Notes under the pieces: generated by a model
The model's database searches: none
Told to the model about the DNA's origin: nothing
What the model saw: the letters and a program-made list of their open reading frames with translations, nothing else
Program-made: the position numbers and the translations under genes
DNA from: Bacteroidetes bacterium RIFCSPLOWO2_12_FULL_35_15
GTDB lineage: Bacteria > Bacteroidota > Bacteroidia > 2-12-FULL-35-15
Assembly (NCBI GenBank): GCA_001769385.1
Contig: MEPB01000070.1
Location: forward strand, 1 to 64,000
Direction: 5' to 3'
Length of the DNA stretch: 64,000 bases
Shown: positions 45,226 to 58,724 of the stretch, one piece after another
Layout of the letters: each line of letters opens with the position of its first letter
How positions within the stretch are numbered: the first letter of the stretch is position 1

Positions 45226-48200
45226 TTATCTTTGAATGAGTACATATCCTTTATGTACTTTTTGTCCTTCTTCATTTTTATGATCTACAAAATCTCCAAG
45301 ATCAAATACGTAATAATATATAGCATCCGGGAGCTCCTGTCCATTATTTGATCTTCCATCCCAATTATTAGTATAAGGAGCTTCTTTATAAATTACATTT
45401 CCCCATCGGTTATAAATAACCAAAGAATTATGTTCAAAATAATCTACGTTTGGAATTATGAACAGATCATTTGCTCCATCACCGTTCGGAGTGATACAAG
45501 TTGGTATCGGACCGGTAATATCACTTAAACACAGGTCAATTGAGATCGTTAAATTATCAGAGGAATAACAATATAAATTTGCTGAATGTAAAGTGTAAGT
45601 TGTTGTTATAGGGGGTGAACAATGTGGATTGCTATTCGTGGAATCACTTAATCCAACAGAAGGTGTCCAGTACATAAAAGCTCCTCCGCTGCCGGACAAA
45701 GTCAGGCTGTCTCCTTTACAAATAGTTGTATTTACTCCTGCGTTGGTGACAGGAGGAGGATTGTTATCTACTAAAATAGTTAGAGTGGCAGGAGTTCCAC
45801 TACATCCATTAAGATCAGAATTTAAGGTATAAGAAGTAGTTACAGCCGGACTTACTAGGATGGTTGTATCAGTAAATCCTGTGTTCCATTGGAAATTTGT
45901 TCCTGCTGTTACCGGGTTTAGATTCGCACTTAAAGTTACGGTTGTTCCGGCACAGATGGTTGTATCTGTTGCACTGATAAAAGCAACAGGTCTTGGTTTT
46001 ACAGTTATTGAAAATGCATTGCTTGGAAAACTTGTGCAGCCTTGAGCGCTTGTCGCGATTGAATAGATCGAATTACCGGGTTGTAAAACAGAGCTTGTAA
46101 AAATACTATTGTTTGAACTTTGTAATAAAGTTGATACATTGTAAAATTGATACAAGGGCATACCTGAAGGAGAAGCAGTAAAAGTAACAGGGTCGCCACT
46201 GCAAATTATCAGGTCAGGATCTGAACATGTTAATGAAATAACAGGTGGTGCCAAAACGGTGAAGTTCAAACTATTGCTTGTATTGCTTGTACATCCTGAG
46301 GAGTTGGTTGCATCAACAGTAATAATGTTTCCACTGCCAATACTCATACTTGAAAGAGCAAGTGAAGCAGCAGATGAACTTTGTAGAACGGTATTTCCAT
46401 TATAAAAAGTATAGTTCGCATAAGCAGCAGGGCTTGCTGAAAAAACAACGGTATCCTGATAACATACCTGACTGCTTGATGGATTTGCAGTTAAGGTAAC
46501 AGTCGGGCTTGGAAGTATAGTTAGTGCCAATGCTGAACCGGTAAATTGACATCCTTGATTTGATGTTACGACATGAATGGATATGTTTCCTGAAATAGTG
46601 TTTGGAGAAGTATAAGTCGGATTATTTGAACTTTGTAATAAAGTGCTTCCGTCATAAAAAGAATAATCTGAAAATCCTGCCGGTGATGCAGTGAAAATAG
46701 TTGGAACTCCCTGACAAATAGAACTTGTGGAAGGCGACATGCTTAGTGTTGCGACAGGTGTTGGATTTACCTGGATAATAAAATAATTACTTACCGGGGT
46801 ACAAGATAATTGAAGCGGATCTGACACGCTAAAATTTACTGTATCTGTAGTCAAGGGCGAAATTGTAATACTGTTATTGTTGCTTAATGATGGGCCTCCA
46901 TTCCAGGAGACATTCGGGTTGGCAATATTAAAACCTGAAAGTGTCAGTGTAATGGAATTGCCACTACAAATAGTTTGAAAAGGATTATAATTAAATGTTA
47001 TTGCTGAACAATTTGTTGCAGAGCAGATGTGTACACTAGAAGGTAAACTATTTCCGCAAGGGAGGGATCCAAGTCCAACAACAACTATGCTTGCACTGCT
47101 TCCGGGAGTTAATCCTGTAACGAGATGCGTTGTTCCATTACTTCCTGAACTCGGACTAATAAACGGGCCACCATTAACGCTAACGATGTATCCGGAAGCA
47201 TCGGTAATTGCGTTCCATGTAAATTCAATTGTGGTGTTTGTTGTTGTCGCACAATTTACCTGTGGCGTATTAAGCGGCTGGATGATTGTTGGAGTTATGT
47301 TATTACTTGCTGTGCCGATACATCCATTATTAGTTGCTACCACATGTATCGAATTCCCGTTTATTAAATTGCCTGAATAAATACTACTTGCAGAACTTTG
47401 AAGCAAAAGAAATCCTTGATAAAAAGAATAATTAGTGTATCCAAGTGGGGATGCTGAAAAAACTATTGGCGTTCCCGAACAAGTGGTATCGTCCTGCTGA
47501 CTAATGCTTAATGTCACCGTAGGTAAAGGATCAACAGTTATAACAAAAAAATTACTAATAGAACCACATGAGGTTTGTAATGCATCACTGACAGAAAAAT
47601 TTACAAGTGTATCGTTCGAAGGCGAAAATGTTACTGTATTATTATTGGATAAAAAAGGCCCTCCATTCCATGAGATAATTGGATTAATAATATTAAATGT
47701 AGAAAGAGTTAATGTAATAGGCTCTCCACTGCAAATGGTTTGATAAGGATTGAAGTTAAAAGTTATCGGAGAGCAGTTCATTGCATAACAGGTATGAATA
47801 GCCGATGGTAAACTATTGCCGCAGGGATAATTTCCAAGAGCGATCACAACTATTGTTGCGCTATCTCCCGGTGATAAACCTGTTATAAGATGCGTGGTAC
47901 CGTTGTTTCCTGAACTAGGTGAGATGAATGACGCTCCATTAACACTTACCAGATAACCTGTTGACCCGGTTATACTATTCCAGATAAACTGTATGGAAGA
48001 AGTAGTAGTTGTTGCACAATTGACTTGCGGTGTTGGGAGTGGTTGAAAAATTATTTTTGAAATGGTATCACTTGCTTTACCTGTACAACCATTATTTTCA
48101 GGTACTACATAAATTGAATTACCATTTGATAAACCCGTTACAGTATAAGTGGGATCGTTCGAATTTTGAACAAGCGATTGACCGTTGTAAAATGAATAAT

Positions 48201-50436
48201 TATTAAATCCTGCCGGAGAAGCTGAAAAAATAATTGGAGTACCATTACAAATTGAATCAGACAGCGGATTAACACTTAAAGCGACCACTGGCAGAGGAGT
48301 AGTCTGGATAATAAAATTATTGGAAACAGGAACACAAGTTGGTTGTAAGGGATTACTTACAATCACATTAACTGTGGTATTTGTTAAAGGGGCAAAGGTA
48401 TAGCTATTGTTGTTTGCTAATGCCGGTCCGCCATTCCAGGAAACTAAGGGATTAGCAATATTATATCCGGAAAGCGAAAGTGTAATACTTTCTCCACTGC
48501 AAATTGTTTGATAGGGATCTATGCTGAAAGTGATGGCAGAGCAATTATTTGCGAAGCACGTTTGAATAGATGACGTATCACTATTTCCGCAAGGTGCAGG
48601 ACCAATTGCTATTACAGCAATAGTAGCACTGTTCCCAGGTATTAATCCTGTTACAATATGGTTTGTTCCTAAATTACCTGAACTGGGAGCAGTATAAGGG
48701 TCGCCATTAATACTAATTATATATCCAGTTGCTCCGGCAATGGGAAGCCATGTAAACTCAATGGTGGTGTCGGTTGATGTTCCGCAGTTTACTTGTGGGG
48801 CAGGCAGAGGCTGTGAAATAATTGGAGTTAAAACATTACTTGAATCTCCTATGCAGCCATTGTTTGTGGCGATTACATAAATTGAATTTCCATCTTGCCA
48901 GGTGGTCGAAGAATATAAATTACCGGATGAATTTTGAAGAGAAAGAAATCCCTGATAGAACGTGTATGAATTATATCCGGAAGGGGAAGCAGTAAATTGT
49001 AAAGTGCTGTTGCTGCAAACTGACAAGTTGCTGCTGGATAGACTTACAGCCGGCAACGGTTTAACCGTCATGTTAATGACATTACTGTTCAGGCTTGTAC
49101 AGTTATTCGAATTTGTACCAATAACATAAAATGAATCCCCTGAATTTAGATTCGATAAAACAAATGAATTGCCGGAAGAATTTTGTACAAGAACCCCATT
49201 TTTATAAAAGGAATAATTGATAAGAGTTGCAGGAGTTGCAGTAAACGTTACCAACTGTCCCTGACAAATTGTATCATTTGGAGATACTGTTAAAATAACT
49301 GATGGAACAGGATTTACAATTACAGGAACGGTGGTAGTGGTGGTACAACCACTGTCAGCTATGCTTAAACTAATATTCTTTGTGCCTGAAGTGTTCCAAT
49401 AGGTGTTTTGTGGACCAACTCCTGTTCCCGGGTTAGCAATGCCTCCGGAAAAATTCCAGTTAAAAGAGGCGCCTGATCCCGAAATTCCGGTATAGGTTAG
49501 TAACGAATTACTTCCAACGCAAACAGGTGATGTTACGGTAAAAACAGAAGTTGGCGTTGTTCTCACAATAATCCCTTTTGTTGTAAGGTTAGAACAACCA
49601 AGCGAATTGGTTGCACTCATGGTAATAAAATAAGTTCCGGGTAAAACAAATGTGTGCGCAGGAGGATTAAAAGCATTTACATCCGGGGTTCCGTCACCAA
49701 AATTCCATTGCCAGGAAGAAAAGGAAGTTGAATTAGTATCAGTAACATTGGTAAAGTTTACTGACATTGGAGAACAACCAACAAAAGAGCTAATATTAAA
49801 ATCAAGATTTGGTGCAGGGATCACTGAAATGTAATTAGTATAGGTAAGTGAATTTGCACACCCATGAGCATTGGTAACAGATAGTTGAACTGAATATACT
49901 CCTCCTGTTGAATAGGTATGGCAGGGCTGAAATTGTGTGCTGCTTGTAAAATCACCAAAATTCCATAAATAAATATTACCTGCACCAAGTGAGGAAAGGT
50001 TGGTAAAACATGCAGAATCAGTAAGGGCACAAAGAGTTAATTTATTGGACAAAAAATCAACTTTAGGTTTTTTATATACAAATACTGTATCGTAAGCAAT
50101 GCTTGGCGGCCCACTTACACACTGAGTATTGAGTGTAACAATATAAGTAGTATCACCGATTATACCTGCAGAATAGCTATGTTGGGGGTTTTGAGCCCCA
50201 ATTGTGGCAGAGCCGTCTCCAAAATCCCATATCCTGGATTGAACAGCTCCGGTTGATAGATCATTGAATTGAATGGTTAAGATCTCACATCCCTTTATGG
50301 GGGTAATATTAGAACCAATTACTGCTGTGCATTGGGAATACAAACTGCCCGAACCTAATACAAACAGGAGTGTAAGAAAAACTAAATACGCCTTGTGATC
50401 AATTTTTTTTTCGAATATATTTTTAAAAAAAATCAT
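45226..50436 (-). CDS. Giant T9SS type B cargo adhesin (gliding-motility C-terminal domain)
   Basis: A 1736-residue surface protein. After a signal peptide come three PKD domains (DFGDGS, NFGDFTSS, NFGDGTPD; about residues 40-290). Next are many Ig-like repeats, each with a xICxGxxxxFTASP..YxFYxG..LQxSS core, seven of them visible. Three longer ~257-residue units with a fibronectin-like part (PQVNC, then SSGN.GT, SGNSA.IVVIA) and an SITLTLSGFNI..SWNGGP part are interleaved. The C-terminus is the type B sorting signal (TPNGDGANDLFIIPNVDYFE, IYNRWGNVIY, NWDGRSNNGQELP). Cysteines are frequent, pointing to disulfides. Probably a SprB-like adhesin. Confidence 0.92.
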   Translation of the reverse strand: MIFFKNIFEKKIDHKAYLVFLTLLFVLGSGSLYSQCTAVIGSNITPIKGCEILTIQFNDLSTGAVQSRIWDFGDGSATIGAQNPQHSYSAGIIGDTTYIVTLNTQCVSGPPSIAYDTVFVYKKPKVDFLSNKLTLCALTDSACFTNLSSLGAGNIYLWNFGDFTSSTQFQPCHTYSTGGVYSVQLSVTNAHGCANSLTYTNYISVIPAPNLDFNISSFVGCSPMSVNFTNVTDTNSTSFSSWQWNFGDGTPDVNAFNPPAHTFVLPGTYFITMSATNSLGCSNLTTKGIIVRTTPTSVFTVTSPVCVGSNSLLTYTGISGSGASFNWNFSGGIANPGTGVGPQNTYWNTSGTKNISLSIADSGCTTTTTVPVIVNPVPSVILTVSPNDTICQGQLVTFTATPATLINYSFYKNGVLVQNSSGNSFVLSNLNSGDSFYVIGTNSNNCTSLNSNVINMTVKPLPAVSLSSSNLSVCSNSTLQFTASPSGYNSYTFYQGFLSLQNSSGNLYSSTTWQDGNSIYVIATNNGCIGDSSNVLTPIISQPLPAPQVNCGTSTDTTIEFTWLPIAGATGYIISINGDPYTAPSSGNLGTNHIVTGLIPGNSATIAVIAIGPAPCGNSDTSSIQTCFANNCSAITFSIDPYQTICSGESITLSLSGYNIANPLVSWNGGPALANNNSYTFAPLTNTTVNVIVSNPLQPTCVPVSNNFIIQTTPLPVVALSVNPLSDSICNGTPIIFSASPAGFNNYSFYNGQSLVQNSNDPTYTVTGLSNGNSIYVVPENNGCTGKASDTISKIIFQPLPTPQVNCATTTTSSIQFIWNSITGSTGYLVSVNGASFISPSSGNNGTTHLITGLSPGDSATIVVIALGNYPCGNSLPSAIHTCYAMNCSPITFNFNPYQTICSGEPITLTLSTFNIINPIISWNGGPFLSNNNTVTFSPSNDTLVNFSVSDALQTSCGSISNFFVITVDPLPTVTLSISQQDDTTCSGTPIVFSASPLGYTNYSFYQGFLLLQSSASSIYSGNLINGNSIHVVATNNGCIGTASNNITPTIIQPLNTPQVNCATTTNTTIEFTWNAITDASGYIVSVNGGPFISPSSGSNGTTHLVTGLTPGSSASIVVVGLGSLPCGNSLPSSVHICSATNCSAITFNYNPFQTICSGNSITLTLSGFNIANPNVSWNGGPSLSNNNSITISPLTTDTVNFSVSDPLQLSCTPVSNYFIIQVNPTPVATLSMSPSTSSICQGVPTIFTASPAGFSDYSFYDGSTLLQSSNNPTYTSPNTISGNISIHVVTSNQGCQFTGSALALTILPSPTVTLTANPSSSQVCYQDTVVFSASPAAYANYTFYNGNTVLQSSSAASLALSSMSIGSGNIITVDATNSSGCTSNTSNSLNFTVLAPPVISLTCSDPDLIICSGDPVTFTASPSGMPLYQFYNVSTLLQSSNNSIFTSSVLQPGNSIYSIATSAQGCTSFPSNAFSITVKPRPVAFISATDTTICAGTTVTLSANLNPVTAGTNFQWNTGFTDTTILVSPAVTTSYTLNSDLNGCSGTPATLTILVDNNPPPVTNAGVNTTICKGDSLTLSGSGGAFMYWTPSVGLSDSTNSNPHCSPPITTTYTLHSANLYCYSSDNLTISIDLCLSDITGPIPTCITPNGDGANDLFIIPNVDYFEHNSLVIYNRWGNVIYKEAPYTNNWDGRSNNGQELPDAIYYYVFDLGDFVDHKNEEGQKVHKGYVLIQR
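46540..48810 (-). repeat. Three ~770-bp internal repeats in the adhesin gene
   Basis: Units begin near 48800, 48020 and 47260 (read on the minus strand) and encode about 257 residues each. They share PQVNC starts and SWNGGP centres and are diverged rather than identical. Confidence 0.75.
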
Positions 50437-50521: not shown

Positions 50522-53500
50522 TTATCTCTGATTTTTTCTACGGAACCAATACTTAAAATTGATATTCAATACTTTCTTCAACCATTCAAAATAAAGGGCT
50601 ATAAATCCAATAACTGAGAAGGTCCAGATAACAATTAAATTGAAATTTAATGTTGAAACAGTTGAACTGAATATTCTTTTTTCAGAAAGAAATAAAGGCT
50701 CGTTTAATGAAATAGCTTTAGCTGTTGAAGGCGATTGAAAAACAGGATCAATAACTTGAATCAGTCCCTTTTCGCTTCGTACAATTTTCCTTTTTGTCAG
50801 CGAGTTCTTTAGAATATCTGAGACATTATCATTTGAGTAATTGTTTTGTATCCGCTGAACTTTTTCTTCTCCATTGGTTTTAATAAAATTACTTACTAAT
50901 TTATCCTTTTGCTGATCCCAATAATTAAAAGTATCGCTATAGTTACTGTTTATTTCAGTGAGAAGATCAACCGTTTTTTCAAATGAATAATTTTTTTCAA
51001 AATTTGAGTCGGAAGAATTTAAACCGGCAGATTCTTTCTTGAATTTAGTTAATTCAATATTTAATATTGCCATATTCTTTTTTAGTGTTTTTTTCTTTTT
51101 GGGATCTGTTGTACCCAATAATCCTTTCGATTCGATATTTATCTTTACAAGTTCAGGAATAGCATAAGCAACAATATAATTGGCTTTACTGATATTTTTA
51201 TCAAGTAAATAAAATTCTTTTTCGTATTTGTTTTCAATAAATTGATTTACCATCAATGCTTCATACGCCCATCTGGATATCATAAATTCAGCAATTGCCG
51301 GTACTTTATCCCCTCCACCAAGGTATTTGTTGATCTTATCATAACCAATCATTGCTCCTCCCATGATCATTTGGGGGATGATTAAAAGTGGGATTAATAT
51401 ATAAATGGTTACCGCAGAATTAAAAGCAGAGGAAATATTTAATCCAACAATATTGGCGCAAGCAGATACTGAAAAAAGCACTAAAAAATAATCTCCGAAC
51501 AACCCCTTGATTCCGATAATTGAATTACCTACATACACAAAAAGTAAGGATTGAATGGCCGAAATAAAAAACAAAAGAGTTATTTTTGAAAAGAGGTAAC
51601 TTAATTTACTAAGATTTAGAAACTGTTCTCTTTTAAGTATTTTTTGATCTTTAAAGATCTCTTCAGCACTTACCGTTAAACCAAAAAACAGCATGACGAT
51701 AACACTGATAAAAATATATGCAGGGATATTTTCGTTTTCCCGGAACATATAAACAGGGTCTTCCGAATTATTGTAATACCTTATCAATCCAGCCAAAATA
51801 AGTGCCAGTAGAGGGGCTTCCAGAAGATTGATGGCTATGTACTGGACATTGCTTATTTTTGAAACAAAGTCTCTTTTCAGAAAGATTAAAAATTGTTTTA
51901 ATTTATTAGGCCTGGAAAACGAAGTTGTCGGAGTATGGGTTTGAACAATTGCATCTTCACTTTTTGAGCCAAATTGTTTCTGATAATTTGCTGACCATTG
52001 TTCAGGTGAAACTTTTCTATTGACCGTTGAATTACCGTATTCATCAACTTCTTTTGCTTCGATAATGTTAAAAATAGTTTCAGGATTTACATTTCCACAG
52101 GATTCACATTCTCCAATATCACTATTTAATTGATTTGCCGATTTTTTAAAATACATTACCGCTTCGATCGGATTGCCATAATAGATCTGATAACCACCTT
52201 TATCTAAGATGATGACCTTATCGAACATTTTATAGATATCTGATGAGGGCTGATGAATAACCACAAAAATTAATTTACCTTTCAGGGAAAGCTCTTTTAG
52301 CAGATCCATTACATTTTCTGAATCTCTGGAGGATAATCCTGAAGTGGGTTCATCAACAAATAGGATAGGAGGTTCCCTGATTAATTCGAGGGAAATGTTT
52401 AATCTTTTTCGTTGTCCGCCACTTATCATTTTGTTTAAAGGGGAACCCACTTTAATGTCTTTAGCTTCTTGTAACCCAAGTCCGGAGAGTGTGCTGAGCG
52501 TTTTTTTTAGAATGTTATTGCTTTGTAATTCCCCATGACATAATTCAGCATTGTAAAATAAATTTTGAAAAACAGATAGGTCATCAAACAACAGATCATC
52601 TTGTGAGATGTACCCCACAATACCATCCAATCCTCCTTTTGCGTGGTGAAGATCTTTTCCATTTATAAAAACTTTTCCTTTTCCGGGTTTTTCTATTCCT
52701 GATAAAACATTTAACAAGGTTGTTTTCCCGGTTCCACTTCCTCCCATGATGCCAATTAATTTTCCACCTTCTTCGGTTATACTGATGTCTCTGAGTGCTT
52801 GTTCCCCGGTTTTAAACTGAAAAGAAATATGCGAAGCTGAAAAATGGATTTTTTCTTCTTTACCTTCATCCAAAAATCGCGAAACAATATCACTGTAATA
52901 AACCGTTCCTCTGGGCATTCGCAAGGTACCTCCCTGAGGGAGAAGATAGATGTTGTTTTCCTTTATTGGAAATCCATTCAGGAAAATTTCGGATTGTCCT
53001 TCATATTTAAAAAAATACAAACCAACAGAATTTACTTTTATGATCCTTATTTCTCCATTAAGACCTTCTGCTTTAATAAATTTGCCATGATGGATTCCGT
53101 CATCTTTTTCCGCAATTAACATGAACTCAGAAAAAACTGAACCTGAATTTGTATTCTTAAATATTAAATATTCGATAAGGGATTTTTCTTCATCATTAAT
53201 TTTGAAAACATCCGATACCGTGGAAATGATTTCCAGTCTTTGTTCCGAACGGGAAGCATCCACGCAAATAAATTCATACAGTCGGATAAGAACTACTGCT
53301 TTTTGTTTTTGTGTAAGTGTTTTATTTATTTTTTTGCAAATGGAAAGGGTCCTAACAGAATCCTTCATGGATGTTAGTTTTTTTTCGGGCTCTTTTTCTT
53401 GTCCCTGAGATTCTTTGGTGCCTAAAAAATCTTCATATAATGTTAAATATTCATTACACTTTAACTCATTTAATTGGGAGTGTAAAAAAAAGTTAATAAA

Positions 53501-53587
53501 TTCCTTTTGTTCTTTAGAACTTCCTGTATCCTGTTTAGCAATGATTGCAAATAATTGCATCAAAGCTTTTAGTATTTCTTCACTCAT
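50522..53587 (-). CDS. ABCG-like ABC transporter with TerB-like and FHA-like N-terminus
   Basis: A 1021-residue half-transporter. Residues 1-145 are helical with a TerB-like second half (TLTQKQKAVVLIRLYEFICV..); 165-240 form a beta-rich FHA-like segment (GEIRIIKVNSVGLYFFKYEG, GGTLRMPRGTVYYSD); then an ABCG-type ATPase with Walker A GGSGTGKTT (282-290), signature ISGGQRKR and Walker B LFVDEPTSGL; then ABC2-type membrane helices from about 590, interrupted by a ~200-residue soluble insertion (around 770-960) before the last helix. The N-terminal layout is the same as in the SiaC fusion upstream. Direction and substrate are unknown. The 270-bp gap to the Sia genes means it may have its own promoter. 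Confidence 0.88.
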   Translation of the reverse strand: MSEEILKALMQLFAIIAKQDTGSSKEQKEFINFFLHSQLNELKCNEYLTLYEDFLGTKESQGQEKEPEKKLTSMKDSVRTLSICKKINKTLTQKQKAVVLIRLYEFICVDASRSEQRLEIISTVSDVFKINDEEKSLIEYLIFKNTNSGSVFSEFMLIAEKDDGIHHGKFIKAEGLNGEIRIIKVNSVGLYFFKYEGQSEIFLNGFPIKENNIYLLPQGGTLRMPRGTVYYSDIVSRFLDEGKEEKIHFSASHISFQFKTGEQALRDISITEEGGKLIGIMGGSGTGKTTLLNVLSGIEKPGKGKVFINGKDLHHAKGGLDGIVGYISQDDLLFDDLSVFQNLFYNAELCHGELQSNNILKKTLSTLSGLGLQEAKDIKVGSPLNKMISGGQRKRLNISLELIREPPILFVDEPTSGLSSRDSENVMDLLKELSLKGKLIFVVIHQPSSDIYKMFDKVIILDKGGYQIYYGNPIEAVMYFKKSANQLNSDIGECESCGNVNPETIFNIIEAKEVDEYGNSTVNRKVSPEQWSANYQKQFGSKSEDAIVQTHTPTTSFSRPNKLKQFLIFLKRDFVSKISNVQYIAINLLEAPLLALILAGLIRYYNNSEDPVYMFRENENIPAYIFISVIVMLFFGLTVSAEEIFKDQKILKREQFLNLSKLSYLFSKITLLFFISAIQSLLFVYVGNSIIGIKGLFGDYFLVLFSVSACANIVGLNISSAFNSAVTIYILIPLLIIPQMIMGGAMIGYDKINKYLGGGDKVPAIAEFMISRWAYEALMVNQFIENKYEKEFYLLDKNISKANYIVAYAIPELVKINIESKGLLGTTDPKKKKTLKKNMAILNIELTKFKKESAGLNSSDSNFEKNYSFEKTVDLLTEINSNYSDTFNYWDQQKDKLVSNFIKTNGEEKVQRIQNNYSNDNVSDILKNSLTKRKIVRSEKGLIQVIDPVFQSPSTAKAISLNEPLFLSEKRIFSSTVSTLNFNLIVIWTFSVIGFIALYFEWLKKVLNINFKYWFRRKNQR

Positions 53588-53730
53588 TTCGCCTTTTTAT
53601 TACTGAATGTTTTCAATTAAAATTGAAGAAGGAATTAAATTTTGAGAATCACATAAACCATCTTTTGTGTTCTTTATTCCTGACTTTAGTTGAAGACATT
53701 TTATAGAATTTAATTTTTTTTATTTGAAAA

Positions 53731-53853
53731 ATGGAGGTATCAGTAATTACTAAAAATAATAGCATTGAAACACTTATTATGCATATTAATATGGTGATTA
53801 TATCTGTTATCATGTTGTTGGCTAATTTGTCTATTATTAAATATTTTAGGTAA
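53731..53853 (+). CDS. Possible 40-residue membrane peptide
   Basis: An open frame ATG..TAA of 40 codons, with one hydrophobic helix (MVIISVIMLLANLSIIKYF). It lies antisense in the gap between two minus-strand genes. Only the hydrophobicity and position support it; chance in AT-rich DNA is the main alternative. Confidence 0.2.
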   Translation: MEVSVITKNNSIETLIMHINMVIISVIMLLANLSIIKYFR

Positions 53854-53857
53854 CGAA

Positions 53858-54961
53858 CTAACTATATGGTATCAAGGTAAATGGAATTTTTACAATTTCG
53901 GAGTAATTTAATCCTGCCTCTGCCAAGTCATCATCACCATCTTGAAAAAACCAATTTATTTGCAGTTCAACATCTTCTTTTTTGTAGGATTGAAGTCTGA
54001 AAAATAGATCCAGAATGCATTTTGAGGAAGTTGTGTTAAAGTAATCTAAACGGATATTTACTTTAATATTAGTTGGATTTGTTTTTAAGTAATTATCAAG
54101 CCAAGTTGAAAGTTTAGAGTAAAATGCCATTCCATTTTCCGGTAAGGAACAACCTGATAATTCGAGTAAATTATTTTTAGGATCAAAACAAACATTCGGA
54201 GTGCTGTCTGTTGCGGTAATTTCTAAAGGGGCAAATCTGGAGTCATTAAAATAATGACGAAAAAGTCCGTTAAAAGAGAGGATCTTATTGTTAATGGATA
54301 AAATATCTCCTTCACTCATAGGATAAATTTTATTTAATTCAAGAGGACTTTCATTAAGTTCTGTCTTTCTGTCAAAAATCCGAATGAATGCTAATTGTTC
54401 TTCCTGCAGGTATGTGTATCCCAACACAGGTGGCGTTTTAATATTTTTTTCAGGCTGAGATTTTGCTTCCGGTAAGTCAGGTAGATCCGACTCATATAAA
54501 AGGAGAATATTTTCTTCTGCTATGTTTTTAATCGGTTGTGGGTTTTGAATAAGTGAAAGTTGTTTAAGAGCAATGAACCAGCTGAAATCGATAACTAATT
54601 TTTGAGCAGCATTTTCAAGAAAAGCCAAACGTTGTTTTTCAAATGTTTGGTTATCATGGCATAAATCAAGAAGAAGGAGTAGAATACAAAGTTTTTCTTT
54701 GCTTGAAAGGCATTTTGAAAGCCGCGACAAGCAAAAATTATATTCTTCAATAGAAATATCTTTCCAGGGAGAAACATTAAAACCTTTACCGGAAATTGAT
54801 TTTGTGGGTTTTAATTGCTCTATAAGATTATTAAACGGACTTTGTTTTTCATAATTTTTTAGAAAAAAACTAAAGTATCTGAAATTTACTGCTTCAATTC
54901 CATTTTCTTTTAAAAAATATGAAAATACAGAAGACAGTTCATATAATGCAATTGGCCTCAT
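53858..54961 (-). CDS. TerB-like / FHA-like / SiaC (DUF1987) fusion protein
   Basis: A 367-residue soluble protein. Residues 1-145 are helical with a TerB-like part (LSSKEKLCILLLLLDLCHDN); 185-240 are beta-rich and FHA-like (QLAFIRIFDRKTELNESPLE, EGDILSINN); 245-367 are a complete SiaC domain. The phospho-acceptor region reads YFNTTSSK with Thr310, equivalent to Thr68 of the free SiaC next door. The first two regions mirror the N-terminus of the ABC transporter two genes down. Fused SiaC domains of this sort are not something I recognise. It starts 9 bp after the free siaC. It may relay Sia phosphorylation state to the transporter. Confidence 0.75.
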   Translation of the reverse strand: MRPIALYELSSVFSYFLKENGIEAVNFRYFSFFLKNYEKQSPFNNLIEQLKPTKSISGKGFNVSPWKDISIEEYNFCLSRLSKCLSSKEKLCILLLLLDLCHDNQTFEKQRLAFLENAAQKLVIDFSWFIALKQLSLIQNPQPIKNIAEENILLLYESDLPDLPEAKSQPEKNIKTPPVLGYTYLQEEQLAFIRIFDRKTELNESPLELNKIYPMSEGDILSINNKILSFNGLFRHYFNDSRFAPLEITATDSTPNVCFDPKNNLLELSGCSLPENGMAFYSKLSTWLDNYLKTNPTNIKVNIRLDYFNTTSSKCILDLFFRLQSYKKEDVELQINWFFQDGDDDLAEAGLNYSEIVKIPFTLIPYS

Positions 54962-54970
54962 CTTTATAAT

Positions 54971-55348
54971 TTAATAACCAAGTAATTCAAATGGAACTTC
55001 TACCAGATCTTTGTACTCTTCACCGGCTTCCAGCATATCGTCATCACGTTTATCATAAAGCCAGTTAACTTGTATCACACTGGACCCTTCCTGATGAATT
55101 TCTTCTAATTTCATTAGAATATCCAATATGATCTTTGATGAAGCAGTATTGAAGTATTCCAATTTAACTTCCAGGGTCAGATTTTTAGTTGGGGATTCTG
55201 AAAATAGATCGAGCCATTCGATTACCGGTTTATAAAATGCAGTAACATCTTCAGGTAACGACCTCCCTGAAAGTTGAAATAACTCCTTTGCTCTGTCAAT
55301 CATTACAGTTGGAGTATCCTCGGTTCCTTCAAAATTTAATTGATCCAT
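54971..55348 (-). CDS. siaC: SiaC-family regulatory phosphoprotein (DUF1987)
   Basis: A 125-residue soluble protein. In Pseudomonas SiaC is phosphorylated on a threonine by SiaB and dephosphorylated by SiaA, and the unphosphorylated form activates a diguanylate cyclase. The matching residue here is Thr68 in YFNTASSK. FELLGY closes the family fold. The start at 55348 is chosen over an upstream Met because the latter overlaps the kinase gene. It follows the kinase gene by 4 bp. No SiaD cyclase is found here, so the output must differ. Confidence 0.85.
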   Translation of the reverse strand: MDQLNFEGTEDTPTVMIDRAKELFQLSGRSLPEDVTAFYKPVIEWLDLFSESPTKNLTLEVKLEYFNTASSKIILDILMKLEEIHQEGSSVIQVNWLYDKRDDDMLEAGEEYKDLVEVPFELLGY

Positions 55349-55352
55349 GATA

Positions 55353-55904
55353 TTATTCTTGTTTTTGGTTTGAAATAACGGATTTAAAAATGAAAAAAGA
55401 TTTATCTTCATCTATTTTTTGTATGCAATAACTTAATTTGTTGCCTGATTTACGGGCTATATCTATAAAGCCTAATCCTGCTCCACCAACTTCCGATATA
55501 ACTGATTTTAGTTTTGCTTCTTTGTATAAAGATTTTAAGCCATCTTTATCGTGGGCATTGATATTATCAAGTAGGCCTATAAGCTGCTCCCTCTTGACGT
55601 TTTGGAGTTCATTGCCACTTAATATTGCAAAATCATTTTTTTGTTTACCAACCATAAAAATTGCAGTATTTGCATCTGTGGAGGATTGATGTTTACAGAT
55701 GTTTTGTAATACCTCCACCATAATATTGAATATTCTTTTTTTTGTTAATTCATCAAGATCATTATTCGAAAAGTTTTTTTCAACCATTGCTAAAACGGCT
55801 TTTGTGATCTCCTGATCAAAATGCCCCTCATAAATAATTGACAGATCATTATCACACATAGTGCGATAAATATCATATACATGCTGAATGGATGTCTTTT
55901 CCAT
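55353..55904 (-). CDS. siaB: SiaB-family protein kinase (DUF6272)
   Basis: A 183-residue kinase of the GHKL-like anti-sigma-kinase type. N-box EVLQNICKH (64-72, Asn68) and glycine loop GGAGLGFIDIARKSG (140-154) are intact, so ATP binding is expected. It would phosphorylate the SiaC threonine. Second of two adjacent paralogues; the gap is 17 bp. Confidence 0.85.
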   Translation of the reverse strand: MEKTSIQHVYDIYRTMCDNDLSIIYEGHFDQEITKAVLAMVEKNFSNNDLDELTKKRIFNIMVEVLQNICKHQSSTDANTAIFMVGKQKNDFAILSGNELQNVKREQLIGLLDNINAHDKDGLKSLYKEAKLKSVISEVGGAGLGFIDIARKSGNKLSYCIQKIDEDKSFFIFKSVISNQKQE

Positions 55905-55921
55905 TGTTGGTTGTTTTTTGT

Positions 55922-56494
55922 TTAACTATTTCTATTAATGACTGTCTTTAAGGAAAAAAAAGTAGTATGCTCGTCCAAATCTTTAAATTCATAGATGATA
56001 TTATTGCCGGTTTTTTTTGCAATATCTATAAGCGCTACTTCTATTGAACTTCCATTAACTAAAGTGTCATTGATCATTAACAATTTATACAATCGTTTTA
56101 GTTCCTCTTTACCAAATGATGCGATAGAATTAAGTATTTGTTTTAACTCACTTTTCTTATTTTTTAAAACAATATTTCCACTATAAATTTCATAATTGTC
56201 GCCAGACTTCCCGATCATTAGCAAGGCTTGTTCTCCTTCAACCATCATTGAACTTTTACTGATGTTTTGCAAACATTCAACTAAAACATTAAATACCTTT
56301 TTCTTAATAAGAACATCTTCCTCCGAATTATTCATTTTTTTTTCTGTCATCGATAAAATTGATCTGATCATATTTTGGTTAAAATTACCTTTATAACAGA
56401 GCATAAAATGATGGGTACTCATAATTTTATTTAAGTCCATCACGTATGTGGATGATTCATCAGAATTGCAAATTACGTCATTTATTGTTTTCAT
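55922..56494 (-). CDS. SiaB-like protein, divergent paralogue
   Basis: A 190-residue protein aligned along its length with the neighbouring SiaB. N-box is kept as ECLQNISKS (Asn77), but the glycine loop reads GSSIEVALIDIAKKTG (148-163), losing most glycines. It is probably a weak or inactive kinase, maybe a regulator or a second phosphoprotein-specific partner. It lies 10 bp after the phosphatase gene. Confidence 0.78.
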   Translation of the reverse strand: MKTINDVICNSDESSTYVMDLNKIMSTHHFMLCYKGNFNQNMIRSILSMTEKKMNNSEEDVLIKKKVFNVLVECLQNISKSSMMVEGEQALLMIGKSGDNYEIYSGNIVLKNKKSELKQILNSIASFGKEELKRLYKLLMINDTLVNGSSIEVALIDIAKKTGNNIIYEFKDLDEHTTFFSLKTVINRNS

Positions 56495-56504
56495 AGATTT
56501 GTTA

Positions 56505-57500
56505 TTAAAATTTAATACCTATTACTAATACATCATCGATCTGTTTATTATCACCCTTCCAATTAGTAAAAGATCTGTCAATGTTGGTTTCTATTTCTTG
56601 TGAATCTAATGAACTTGACTGAATTAATAATTCATTTAATTGACTGGTAGAGAACTTACGATTCTCCTCACCACCAATTTGATCGGGATATCCATCTGAA
56701 AAGATAAATAATGAATTGCCTTTTTCATAGGGGATCATTTGTTCAGTATATTTATTTTGTCCTTTATATTGCATTCCTCCGATTGGATACCGATCCCCTT
56801 TTAATATAGTTTTCACTCCTTTCTTTACAAAAAGTAAGGGTCGATGAGCACCTGAAAAGTATATCCTTTGTTTTTTCATATCAATTTTGCACAACGCGAT
56901 ATCCATTCCATCGCTTGAAAAATTTTCCGGATTGTTTTGTTTTAATGTTAGCACCACCTGTTTATGCAAACTTTCAAGGATTTCAGAGGTCTTTTTTTTA
57001 GGATGGTTTGAAATTATGTCATTTAAAAGCAAATTCCCTATTATTGAAAGCATTGCACCAGGCACGCCATGTCCGGTACAATCTACAGCGGCAAAAAAAA
57101 CATCATCACCATTTTTATAATACCAGGGAAAATCCCCGCTTATAATATCTTTTGGTTTATAATAGATAAAGCTATTTGGGAACTCCTCTTTTAAATTATT
57201 TTCGGTTGCATTAATAGCTAATTGAATTTTTCTGGCATAATTGATACTCTCTGAAATTCGTTGGTTTTGTTTTTCAACAAGTTGTTTGGTATTGTTCAGT
57301 TCATCAAGCGTTTCTTTTAACTGTCTTTTCATTTCGCGTTCTCTCCAGGTTGCTGCAATCAGATGATTATTGGTTGCTTCCATTTCATTAAAATATAGCT
57401 GAAGTTTTTCAACTTCTGAAGTCAGATTTTTGTTTATTTCTTTTTGTTTTACCAACTCAGCGGAGAGGTTTTGGGTGTCGTTTTCCATTTCCGGGTCCAT
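56505..57500 (-). CDS. SiaA-like PP2C (SpoIIE-type) Ser/Thr phosphatase
   Basis: A 331-residue soluble protein. Residues 1-100 form a long coiled coil (EINKNLTSEVEKLQLYF..RRISES); the rest is a PPM phosphatase: SGDF (Asp123), AAVDCTGHGVPGAM (Asp140), SDGYPDQIGG and the C-terminal QIDDVLVIGIKF, giving the metal-binding aspartates. Unlike Pseudomonas SiaA it has no membrane or HAMP sensor. It heads the operon phosphatase-SiaB-like-SiaB-SiaC-SiaC fusion, as expected for a partner switch. Confidence 0.9.
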   Translation of the reverse strand: MDPEMENDTQNLSAELVKQKEINKNLTSEVEKLQLYFNEMEATNNHLIAATWREREMKRQLKETLDELNNTKQLVEKQNQRISESINYARKIQLAINATENNLKEEFPNSFIYYKPKDIISGDFPWYYKNGDDVFFAAVDCTGHGVPGAMLSIIGNLLLNDIISNHPKKKTSEILESLHKQVVLTLKQNNPENFSSDGMDIALCKIDMKKQRIYFSGAHRPLLFVKKGVKTILKGDRYPIGGMQYKGQNKYTEQMIPYEKGNSLFIFSDGYPDQIGGEENRKFSTSQLNELLIQSSSLDSQEIETNIDRSFTNWKGDNKQIDDVLVIGIKF

Positions 57501-57812: not shown

Positions 57813-58724
57813 ATGTTAAAAATACTATCATACGGTTCACTCATAGCGATTTGTATCACCCTTGGCTCATGCAGATCTGAACAAGATCAGGACACCTTGA
57901 ATAAAAATACACTTGTTGATACCTCCTTATCAAAAGTTACAATTTCGGACGAAACAATAAACGGGATCATTAATTCTATTCCCTCTCCTCTGGAAACGGT
58001 TACTCTTATCAAAGAAAGCGGATTAAAGTATGATGAGTCATTTTTAAACCCTTCAGATAATATAGAGAAATATAAATCCAAGTACGCTAAGTCTTTTGCA
58101 ATTGGAATTTATAGTGCTGATCTGGGTTACCTCAATTTGTACGAGAAAAATGTTGCATCACTTAATTACATTGTTGCTGTACGTAAATTATCACAAGATC
58201 TGGGACTTGAACAGTTTTTTGATTTCGAGACATTAAAAAGACTCGCATCCAGCAATAAAAATTTAGATTCGTTACTTTATATAAGTACTTCTTGTTTTAA
58301 TAAAATGGATTCATATTTACGAAAAAATAAAAGAAGTGAACAAAGTTCTTTAATTATAATAGGTGCCTGGATCGAAGGACTTTATTTCGAAACAGAGATG
58401 GCAAAAAATAATCCAAGTAAAAAGATCAGAGAGAGTATTGGTTCTCAAAAAGTAGCTATAAATAGCATAATGGCTATTCTGGATGTATATAAGAATAATG
58501 ATTATTTTAAGAATGTGAAAACCCAGATGGATCCGCTTAAAAAATTATTTGATAAGGTTGATATTACTTATAACTATAAAGAACCGGAAACCAAAGAGGT
58601 AAATGGTGAATTGGTAATTATAGAAAAAAGTGAGAGTGTAGTAACTATTCCGGATGATGTTTTTAAGGATATAATTACCAATACAGGGGAAATCCGGAAA
58701 GCTATTTTAAATTCTACCAATTAA
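57813..58724 (+). CDS. Hypothetical lipoprotein
   Basis: A 303-residue lipoprotein: signal to lipobox LGSC (Cys20). The body is helical (KSKYAKSFAIGIYSADLGYL; SSLIIIGAWIEGLYFETEMA; DDVFKDIITNTGEIRKAIL). It matches a Bacteroidota family of unknown function. Divergent from the Sia operon, so shared control is possible. Confidence 0.65.
   Translation: MLKILSYGSLIAICITLGSCRSEQDQDTLNKNTLVDTSLSKVTISDETINGIINSIPSPLETVTLIKESGLKYDESFLNPSDNIEKYKSKYAKSFAIGIYSADLGYLNLYEKNVASLNYIVAVRKLSQDLGLEQFFDFETLKRLASSNKNLDSLLYISTSCFNKMDSYLRKNKRSEQSSLIIIGAWIEGLYFETEMAKNNPSKKIRESIGSQKVAINSIMAILDVYKNNDYFKNVKTQMDPLKKLFDKVDITYNYKEPETKEVNGELVIIEKSESVVTIPDDVFKDIITNTGEIRKAILNSTN

Follow-up and report, generated by a model that had tools for sequence, protein, structure and literature searches.

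A Sia-type partner-switching operon with a membrane exporter as its probable output in a Bacteroidota genome

The first 64,000 nucleotides of contig MEPB01000070.1 (assembly GCA_001769385.1) of Bacteroidetes bacterium RIFCSPLOWO2_12_FULL_35_15, called the window below, carry an operon of Sia-type partner-switching genes. It codes for a SpoIIE-type phosphatase, two proteins of the SiaB family (SiaB1 and SiaB2), a free SiaC and a protein in which a second SiaC domain is fused to helical TerB-like and FHA-like regions. An ATP-binding cassette (ABC) exporter gene lies on one side of the operon and a lipoprotein gene on the other (Table 1). Our results suggest that these genes probably form a Sia-type partner switch with the membrane exporter as its output.

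Genes of the operon

An earlier note, made from the letters of this DNA, had described a five-gene Sia-type partner-switching operon. Its five open reading frames (ORFs) are all present on the minus strand between 53858 and 57500, and Pfam confirms their assignments, with a SpoIIE phosphatase, an intact SiaB1 and a SiaC bearing Thr68 among them. The span given there excludes the ABC transporter and the lipoprotein, although both are conserved components of the system. Promoter and terminator counts within the operon are at chance level.

Table 1. Features of the Sia-ABC locus, in window coordinates (DUF6272 is the Pfam name of the SiaB family)
Feature	Position	Strand	Evidence or remark
SiaA-like SpoIIE/PP2C phosphatase, 331 amino acids	56505..57500	-	Pfam SpoIIE 1.6e-17
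SiaB2, SiaB family, probable pseudokinase	55922..56494	-	Pfam DUF6272 1.3e-26
SiaB1, intact SiaB-family Thr kinase (by motifs)	55353..55904	-	Pfam DUF6272 1.4e-35
Free SiaC, 125 amino acids from internal Met	54971..55348 (ORF 54971-55411)	-	Pfam SiaC 1.1e-39
Fusion, 367 amino acids: TerB-FHA (residues 1-~242) and SiaC (residues ~246-367)	53858..54961	-	Pfam SiaC 1.3e-36 (residues 248-366)
ABC-2 (ABCG-like) transporter with N-terminal TerB-FHA domain	50522..53587	-	ABC_tran (PF00005) 9.4e-27, ABC2_membrane (PF01061) 3.1e-21
Lipoprotein X, ABC-associated, lipobox LGSC	57813..58724	+	family beside ABC elsewhere; divergent from operon

For SiaA, SiaB and SiaC alike, the window proteins stay under the equivalog cut-offs of NCBIfam; the phosphatase scores 150.9 bits against the SiaA model, under its cut-off of 700. 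This phosphatase begins with a coiled coil, while its relatives in conserved operons possess PAS/GAF or dCache-HAMP sensors. As Pfam finds no sensor domain in it, it probably receives its signal by way of a different protein. Both SiaB proteins exceed the cut-off of the SiaB_fam_kinase model (85 bits), SiaB1 with 138 and SiaB2 with 120 bits. SiaB1 retains an intact N-box (VEVLQNICKH) and G-box (GGAGLGF). In SiaB2, the GGAGLG ATP-lid box is changed to NGSSIEV and the KH of the N-box to KS, and the ortholog in the closest relative (genome G021, 80% identity) has the same changes. Because the ATP-lid motif is lost in both orthologs, SiaB2 is probably a pseudokinase, so that of the two kinases expected from the earlier note only SiaB1 appears intact by its motifs.

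The same note had placed a conserved acceptor threonine in each of the two SiaC domains. Thr310 of the fusion was given exactly; Thr68 of the free SiaC is right when translation begins with an internal Met (window position 55348, MDQLNFEG...) and not at the first ATG. Both threonines lie inside a Y(F)NT motif, as around Thr68 of Pseudomonas aeruginosa SiaC (peptide LLYLNTSSIK; PMC7647112). Among 125 SiaC domains from this and related genomes, 113 have Thr at the acceptor position and 10 have Ser. It is plausible that a single kinase phosphorylates both SiaC domains of the operon. In the SiaC tree, the free SiaC clusters with SiaC proteins from ABC-linked operons.

The genome holds about 13 SiaC domains, roughly 11 of them beyond the two of the operon, and the majority of these further domains have no ABC gene nearby. 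Several further arrangements were seen in it (G000 in our numbering). A 320-amino-acid protein, encoded behind a SpoIIE gene, is a kinase-substrate fusion of a SiaB kinase domain with a SiaC domain (L109:6605-7564, contig C19). A tandem SiaC protein lacks the acceptor Thr in its first domain (L108:8431-9249, contig C40), and two Sia modules adjoin on that contig. A SiaC remnant with several stop codons (C70:96194-96541, on the same contig as the window) directly follows an intact pair of SpoIIE and SiaB genes (L120).

The fusion protein and the N-terminal domain of the exporter

The ABC protein of the window combines an ABC ATPase and an ABC-2 membrane domain in a single chain. Its best NCBIfam match is TIGR00955, a model of ABCG-type permeases (257 bits, under the cut-off of 736). 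The N-terminal 255 amino acids, modelled from 41 relatives with a predicted local distance difference test score (pLDDT) of 85, form seven helices followed by a beta-sandwich. The model matches the TerB-like structures 2h5n (Z 9.2) and 2ou3 (Z 8.1), values that are moderate among helical folds, and many FHA domains in a row (Z up to 7.8), including FHA-2 of Rv1747 (Z 6.6). Pfam TerB matches (0.013-0.25) stay under the cut-off.

The N-terminal 240 amino acids of the fusion have no Pfam match. They align over their full length with the N-terminal domain of the ABC protein (N-domain below), and SiaC starts at the position where the ABC ATPase does. A profile of 41 ABC N-domains, built with the fusions excluded, scores the fusion N-domain at 30.3 bits (E value 1.6e-8), the top of 1000 shuffles being 8.9 bits, and comparison by hhalign gives P 4.8e-5. 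Identity to the ABC N-domains is about 20%, and BLASTP between the fusion and the ABC N-domain gives an E value of 0.007 only; the claim of homology therefore rests on profiles, relatives and models. The fusion as a protein query found no relatives on the genome contigs, and a search with its N-domain gave no match in the 35 other genomes that represent the order; a profile made from ABC N-domains was required.

The fusion model (pLDDT 82) has helices and strands in the same order as the ABC N-domain, with SiaC at the end, a common fold that is not independent of the sequence match since ABC N-domains were included in the underlying alignment. Its N-terminal part resembles TerB-like 2h5n (Z 10.0) and FHA domains (Z about 6), in agreement with the TerB-like and FHA-like regions that had been anticipated for it. 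The SiaC part superimposes on P. aeruginosa SiaC with Z 20.7 at 1.5-1.7 Å. By profile and model evidence, the fusion thus begins with a diverged copy of the exporter's N-terminal domain and continues with SiaC instead of the ATPase and membrane parts.

Fusions are present in 3 of 395 genomes of the class. The other two (genomes G075 and G147) have the same layout, and each is located between a free SiaC and an ABC gene. Their N-domains score 73.5 and 48.1 bits, respectively, against the ABC-only profile and 188 and 176 bits in another search. The N-domain of the window fusion has no direct match to either, although all three match ABC proteins, and it is nearer to the ABC proteins than to the other two fusions. 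A repeated origin of the fusion is thus possible. The tree of SiaC domains unites the fusion SiaC domains (98/83), with long branches flagged.

Linkage to the exporter and absence of GGDEF proteins

The 80 named loci that we compared are the best-matching ones, picked by similarity to SiaC-linked ABC proteins, and are neither a random sample nor an unbiased estimate; SiaC stands beside the ABC gene in 75 of them and all four partners are present in 54. Their titles are of Bacteroidota, bar one record named Planktophila. In most of these loci the genes for SpoIIE, SiaB, SiaC, ABC and lipoprotein are co-directional, and in the class, the loci whose ABC is nearest to that of the window likewise show the order SpoIIE-SiaB(-SiaB)-SiaC-ABC-lipoprotein in one direction. 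Within the stretches retrieved from the class, SiaC was found at 14 of the 20 top ABC loci and at 10 of 40 lower-ranked ones, the chance expectation for SiaC near an ABC gene being about 1% (205 SiaC matches in 60 genomes, ~3.4 per genome). Thirteen contigs from the same order carry the genes for SiaC, for a ~283-amino-acid lipoprotein and for the ABC in succession. A second type of ABC comes after genes for a lipoprotein and for a small secreted protein; some of the genomes have a SiaC-SiaB(-SpoIIE) group facing it in convergent orientation. In G021, SiaB2, SiaB1 and the ABC are directly adjacent (L052:1-4318).

Presence or absence of the ABC and of SiaC agrees in 53 of 60 genomes of the class: 35 have both, 18 neither, 6 SiaC only and one the ABC only (Fisher p = 2.4e-9 over about 50 families, uncorrected for the relatedness of genomes). 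The family of lipoprotein X, with members of ~280-310 amino acids, accompanies the ABC in 65 of the 80 named loci and, in the class sample, at 36 of 40 loci, and has no match in Pfam or NCBIfam. Lipoprotein X was also considered as a relative of the fusion N-domain, and this was rejected.

A GGDEF protein was found nowhere in the whole 5.39 Mb genome, which is 99.4% complete; the same search was positive in 8 of 14 control genomes. The absence that the earlier note had reported for the locus thus holds genome-wide. Within the order, GGDEF occurs in 2 of 36 genomes, whereas SiaC occurs in 34. A diguanylate cyclase as the output here is therefore very unlikely and was rejected as a candidate. 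This supports the earlier expectation of some other output, for which the exporter can now be named as a candidate. Being linked to the Sia genes, co-occurring with them and sharing a domain with the SiaC fusion, the ABC exporter is the best candidate and most likely the output.

Some features of the neighbourhood may be added. The gap between the fusion and ABC genes contains an unlisted ORF of 54 amino acids (53649-53813, minus strand) with one hydrophobic stretch (MITDIITILICIISVSMLLFLVITD...); the gap between SiaB1 and the ABC in G021 is only 104 base pairs (bp). Immediately downstream of the window ABC, a 1736-amino-acid PKD-repeat-like protein with a C-terminus of gliding-motility type is encoded (45226-50436, minus strand), and a long ORF is likewise found downstream of the ABC in G021. 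At the ABC loci designated type A, a conserved secreted protein of ~140 amino acids (AQCDTIA..C..) has its gene between those of the lipoprotein and the ABC (L242:8220-8652; L231, L247, L254, L262).

Proposed switch, alternatives and known systems

In P. aeruginosa, the alpha2-alpha3 face of SiaC docks on helices of SiaD with Thr68 in contact, and phosphorylation of SiaC prevents this binding (PMC8457831). MlaB, a STAS protein, contacts the ABC ATPase MlaF at an interface that includes Thr52 of MlaB; a phosphomimic weakens the binding, and the question of MlaB phosphorylation itself was left open (PMC7367683). The SiaC domain model resembles MlaB with Z 8.4. By analogy with these two contacts, unphosphorylated SiaC should bind the ABC protein, most simply through its TerB-FHA domain, under the control of SiaB1 and the phosphatase. 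These two enzymes would set the phosphorylation state of Thr68, by chemistry known from P. aeruginosa. SiaC, most likely in its unphosphorylated form, would dock on the cytosolic TerB-FHA domain, much as it does on the stalk of SiaD, and switch the transporter on or off, and the partner lipoprotein would act in the periplasm or at the outer membrane. In the fusion we see, most likely, a soluble protein that mimics the exporter's TerB-FHA domain in binding; it would most likely deliver an extra phosphorylatable SiaC to the transporter by domain-domain pairing, or else compete for free SiaC.

Three other explanations deserve consideration. The FHA-like domain of the ABC and the fusion could be a phosphothreonine reader, binding SiaC phosphorylated at Thr68 or Thr310 in the way FHA I of Rv1747 binds phospho-Rv2623, which is a real precedent (PMC5549992). 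The predicted fold, with Rv1747 FHA-2 among its matches, would suit this role, and the same operon encodes a phosphothreonine protein. However, when 41 ABC N-domains are set against the FHA domain of MEK1, in a register taken from a weak profile alignment (E value 0.34), the column under the Asn of NGT varies (S/E/N/D, with Asn in 5 of 41), L/I/F stands in place of the Ser of SRxH, and the column under its His varies as well. As the binding residues are not kept, the FHA-like region is probably no phosphothreonine reader; moreover, it is the phosphorylated form of P. aeruginosa SiaC that loses its target (PMC8457831), and we regard this explanation as very improbable. Alternatively, the target of the Sia proteins might be unlinked, such as an anti-sigma factor or a different enzyme, with the ABC-lipoprotein pair as a mere stable neighbour. 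The additional SiaC domains of the genome, most of them distant from any ABC, fit such a target, as do the type A ABC copies, most of which have no adjacent SiaC. It is made unlikely by a neighbourhood kept over many families in two arrangements, co-directional and convergent, by the correlated presence and absence of ABC and SiaC, and by a fusion that joins SiaC to the N-domain of the ABC itself. The third possibility concerns the fusion, which might be a decaying or accidental chimera without function, so that only the free SiaC and the ABC matter. Its intact frame of 367 amino acids, the kept acceptor Thr and SiaC fold, the confident model and the similar fusion at the same place in another family all speak for a functional protein, as does the greater closeness of its N-domain to ABC proteins than to other fusions, a hint at repeated origin. 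These outweigh, in our view, its rarity among the class genomes, its low identity to the ABC N-domains, its fast-evolving SiaC branch and its absence in G021, and loss of function seems quite unlikely.

An exporter under Sia control therefore remains our preferred explanation, with several observations weighing against it. SiaC and the fusion are absent at the place in G021 where SiaB2, SiaB1 and the ABC adjoin. Thirty of 40 lower-ranked loci of the type A ABC have no SiaC nearby, and with so many such copies SiaC is not obligatory. The 270-bp gap between the fusion and the ABC in the window leaves their co-transcription an inference, and linkage alone proves neither contact nor the direction of control. 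The fusion, rare and fast-diverging, could be on its way out.

The balance tips slightly in favour of a widespread Bacteroidota system, in which the STAS-like phosphoprotein SiaC, by binding a TerB-FHA domain, places an ABC exporter under the control of a kinase/phosphatase pair, and to which some species add the fusion. SiaC (DUF1987) is widespread, and the diguanylate cyclase SiaD is the sole SiaC output found in the papers searched. In the open-licence papers, we found no literature on SiaC/DUF1987 or on TerB-FHA-ABC systems in Bacteroidota, and neither a Sia switch linked to an ABC exporter nor a SiaC fusion of this kind. The protein families are all known; the linkage and the fusion are new to that literature. 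If our proposal is true, the exporter would extend the known outputs of SiaC beyond the cyclase for the first time, as a second kind of SiaC target, and the system would be a dedicated phospho-switch for an ABC transporter. It would help to explain the abundance of Sia modules in Bacteroidota, and would offer a natural test system for phosphorylation switching of STAS-like ABC subunits, the question raised for MlaB (PMC7367683).

The system combines traits of three known ones. Like SiaABCD of P. aeruginosa (SiaA phosphatase, SiaB kinase, SiaC and the diguanylate cyclase SiaD), it brings together in one operon a PP2C/SpoIIE phosphatase, a SiaB-family kinase and a SiaC with Thr68. It differs from SiaABCD in that the genome has no GGDEF protein and the putative target linked to it is an ABC exporter, to whose N-domain a second SiaC is joined; its proteins also score below the SiaA, SiaB and SiaC equivalog cut-offs. 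With MlaFEDB of Escherichia coli it would share the regulation of an ABC transporter by a STAS-like protein, as the match of SiaC to MlaB suggests. MlaB has no known kinase or phosphatase, whereas here both are encoded in the operon, and the transporter here is ABCG-like with a TerB-FHA domain. Rv1747 of Mycobacterium tuberculosis, an FHA-FHA-ABC exporter under phospho-Rv2623, likewise pairs an ABC-2 exporter bearing an N-terminal FHA fold with a Thr-phosphorylated partner, a control predicted for our system. In contrast to Rv1747, the exporter described here has a TerB-like helical domain and an FHA-like part without phosphothreonine-binding residues, and its putative partner is SiaC, with a SiaB-type kinase, instead of a universal stress protein.

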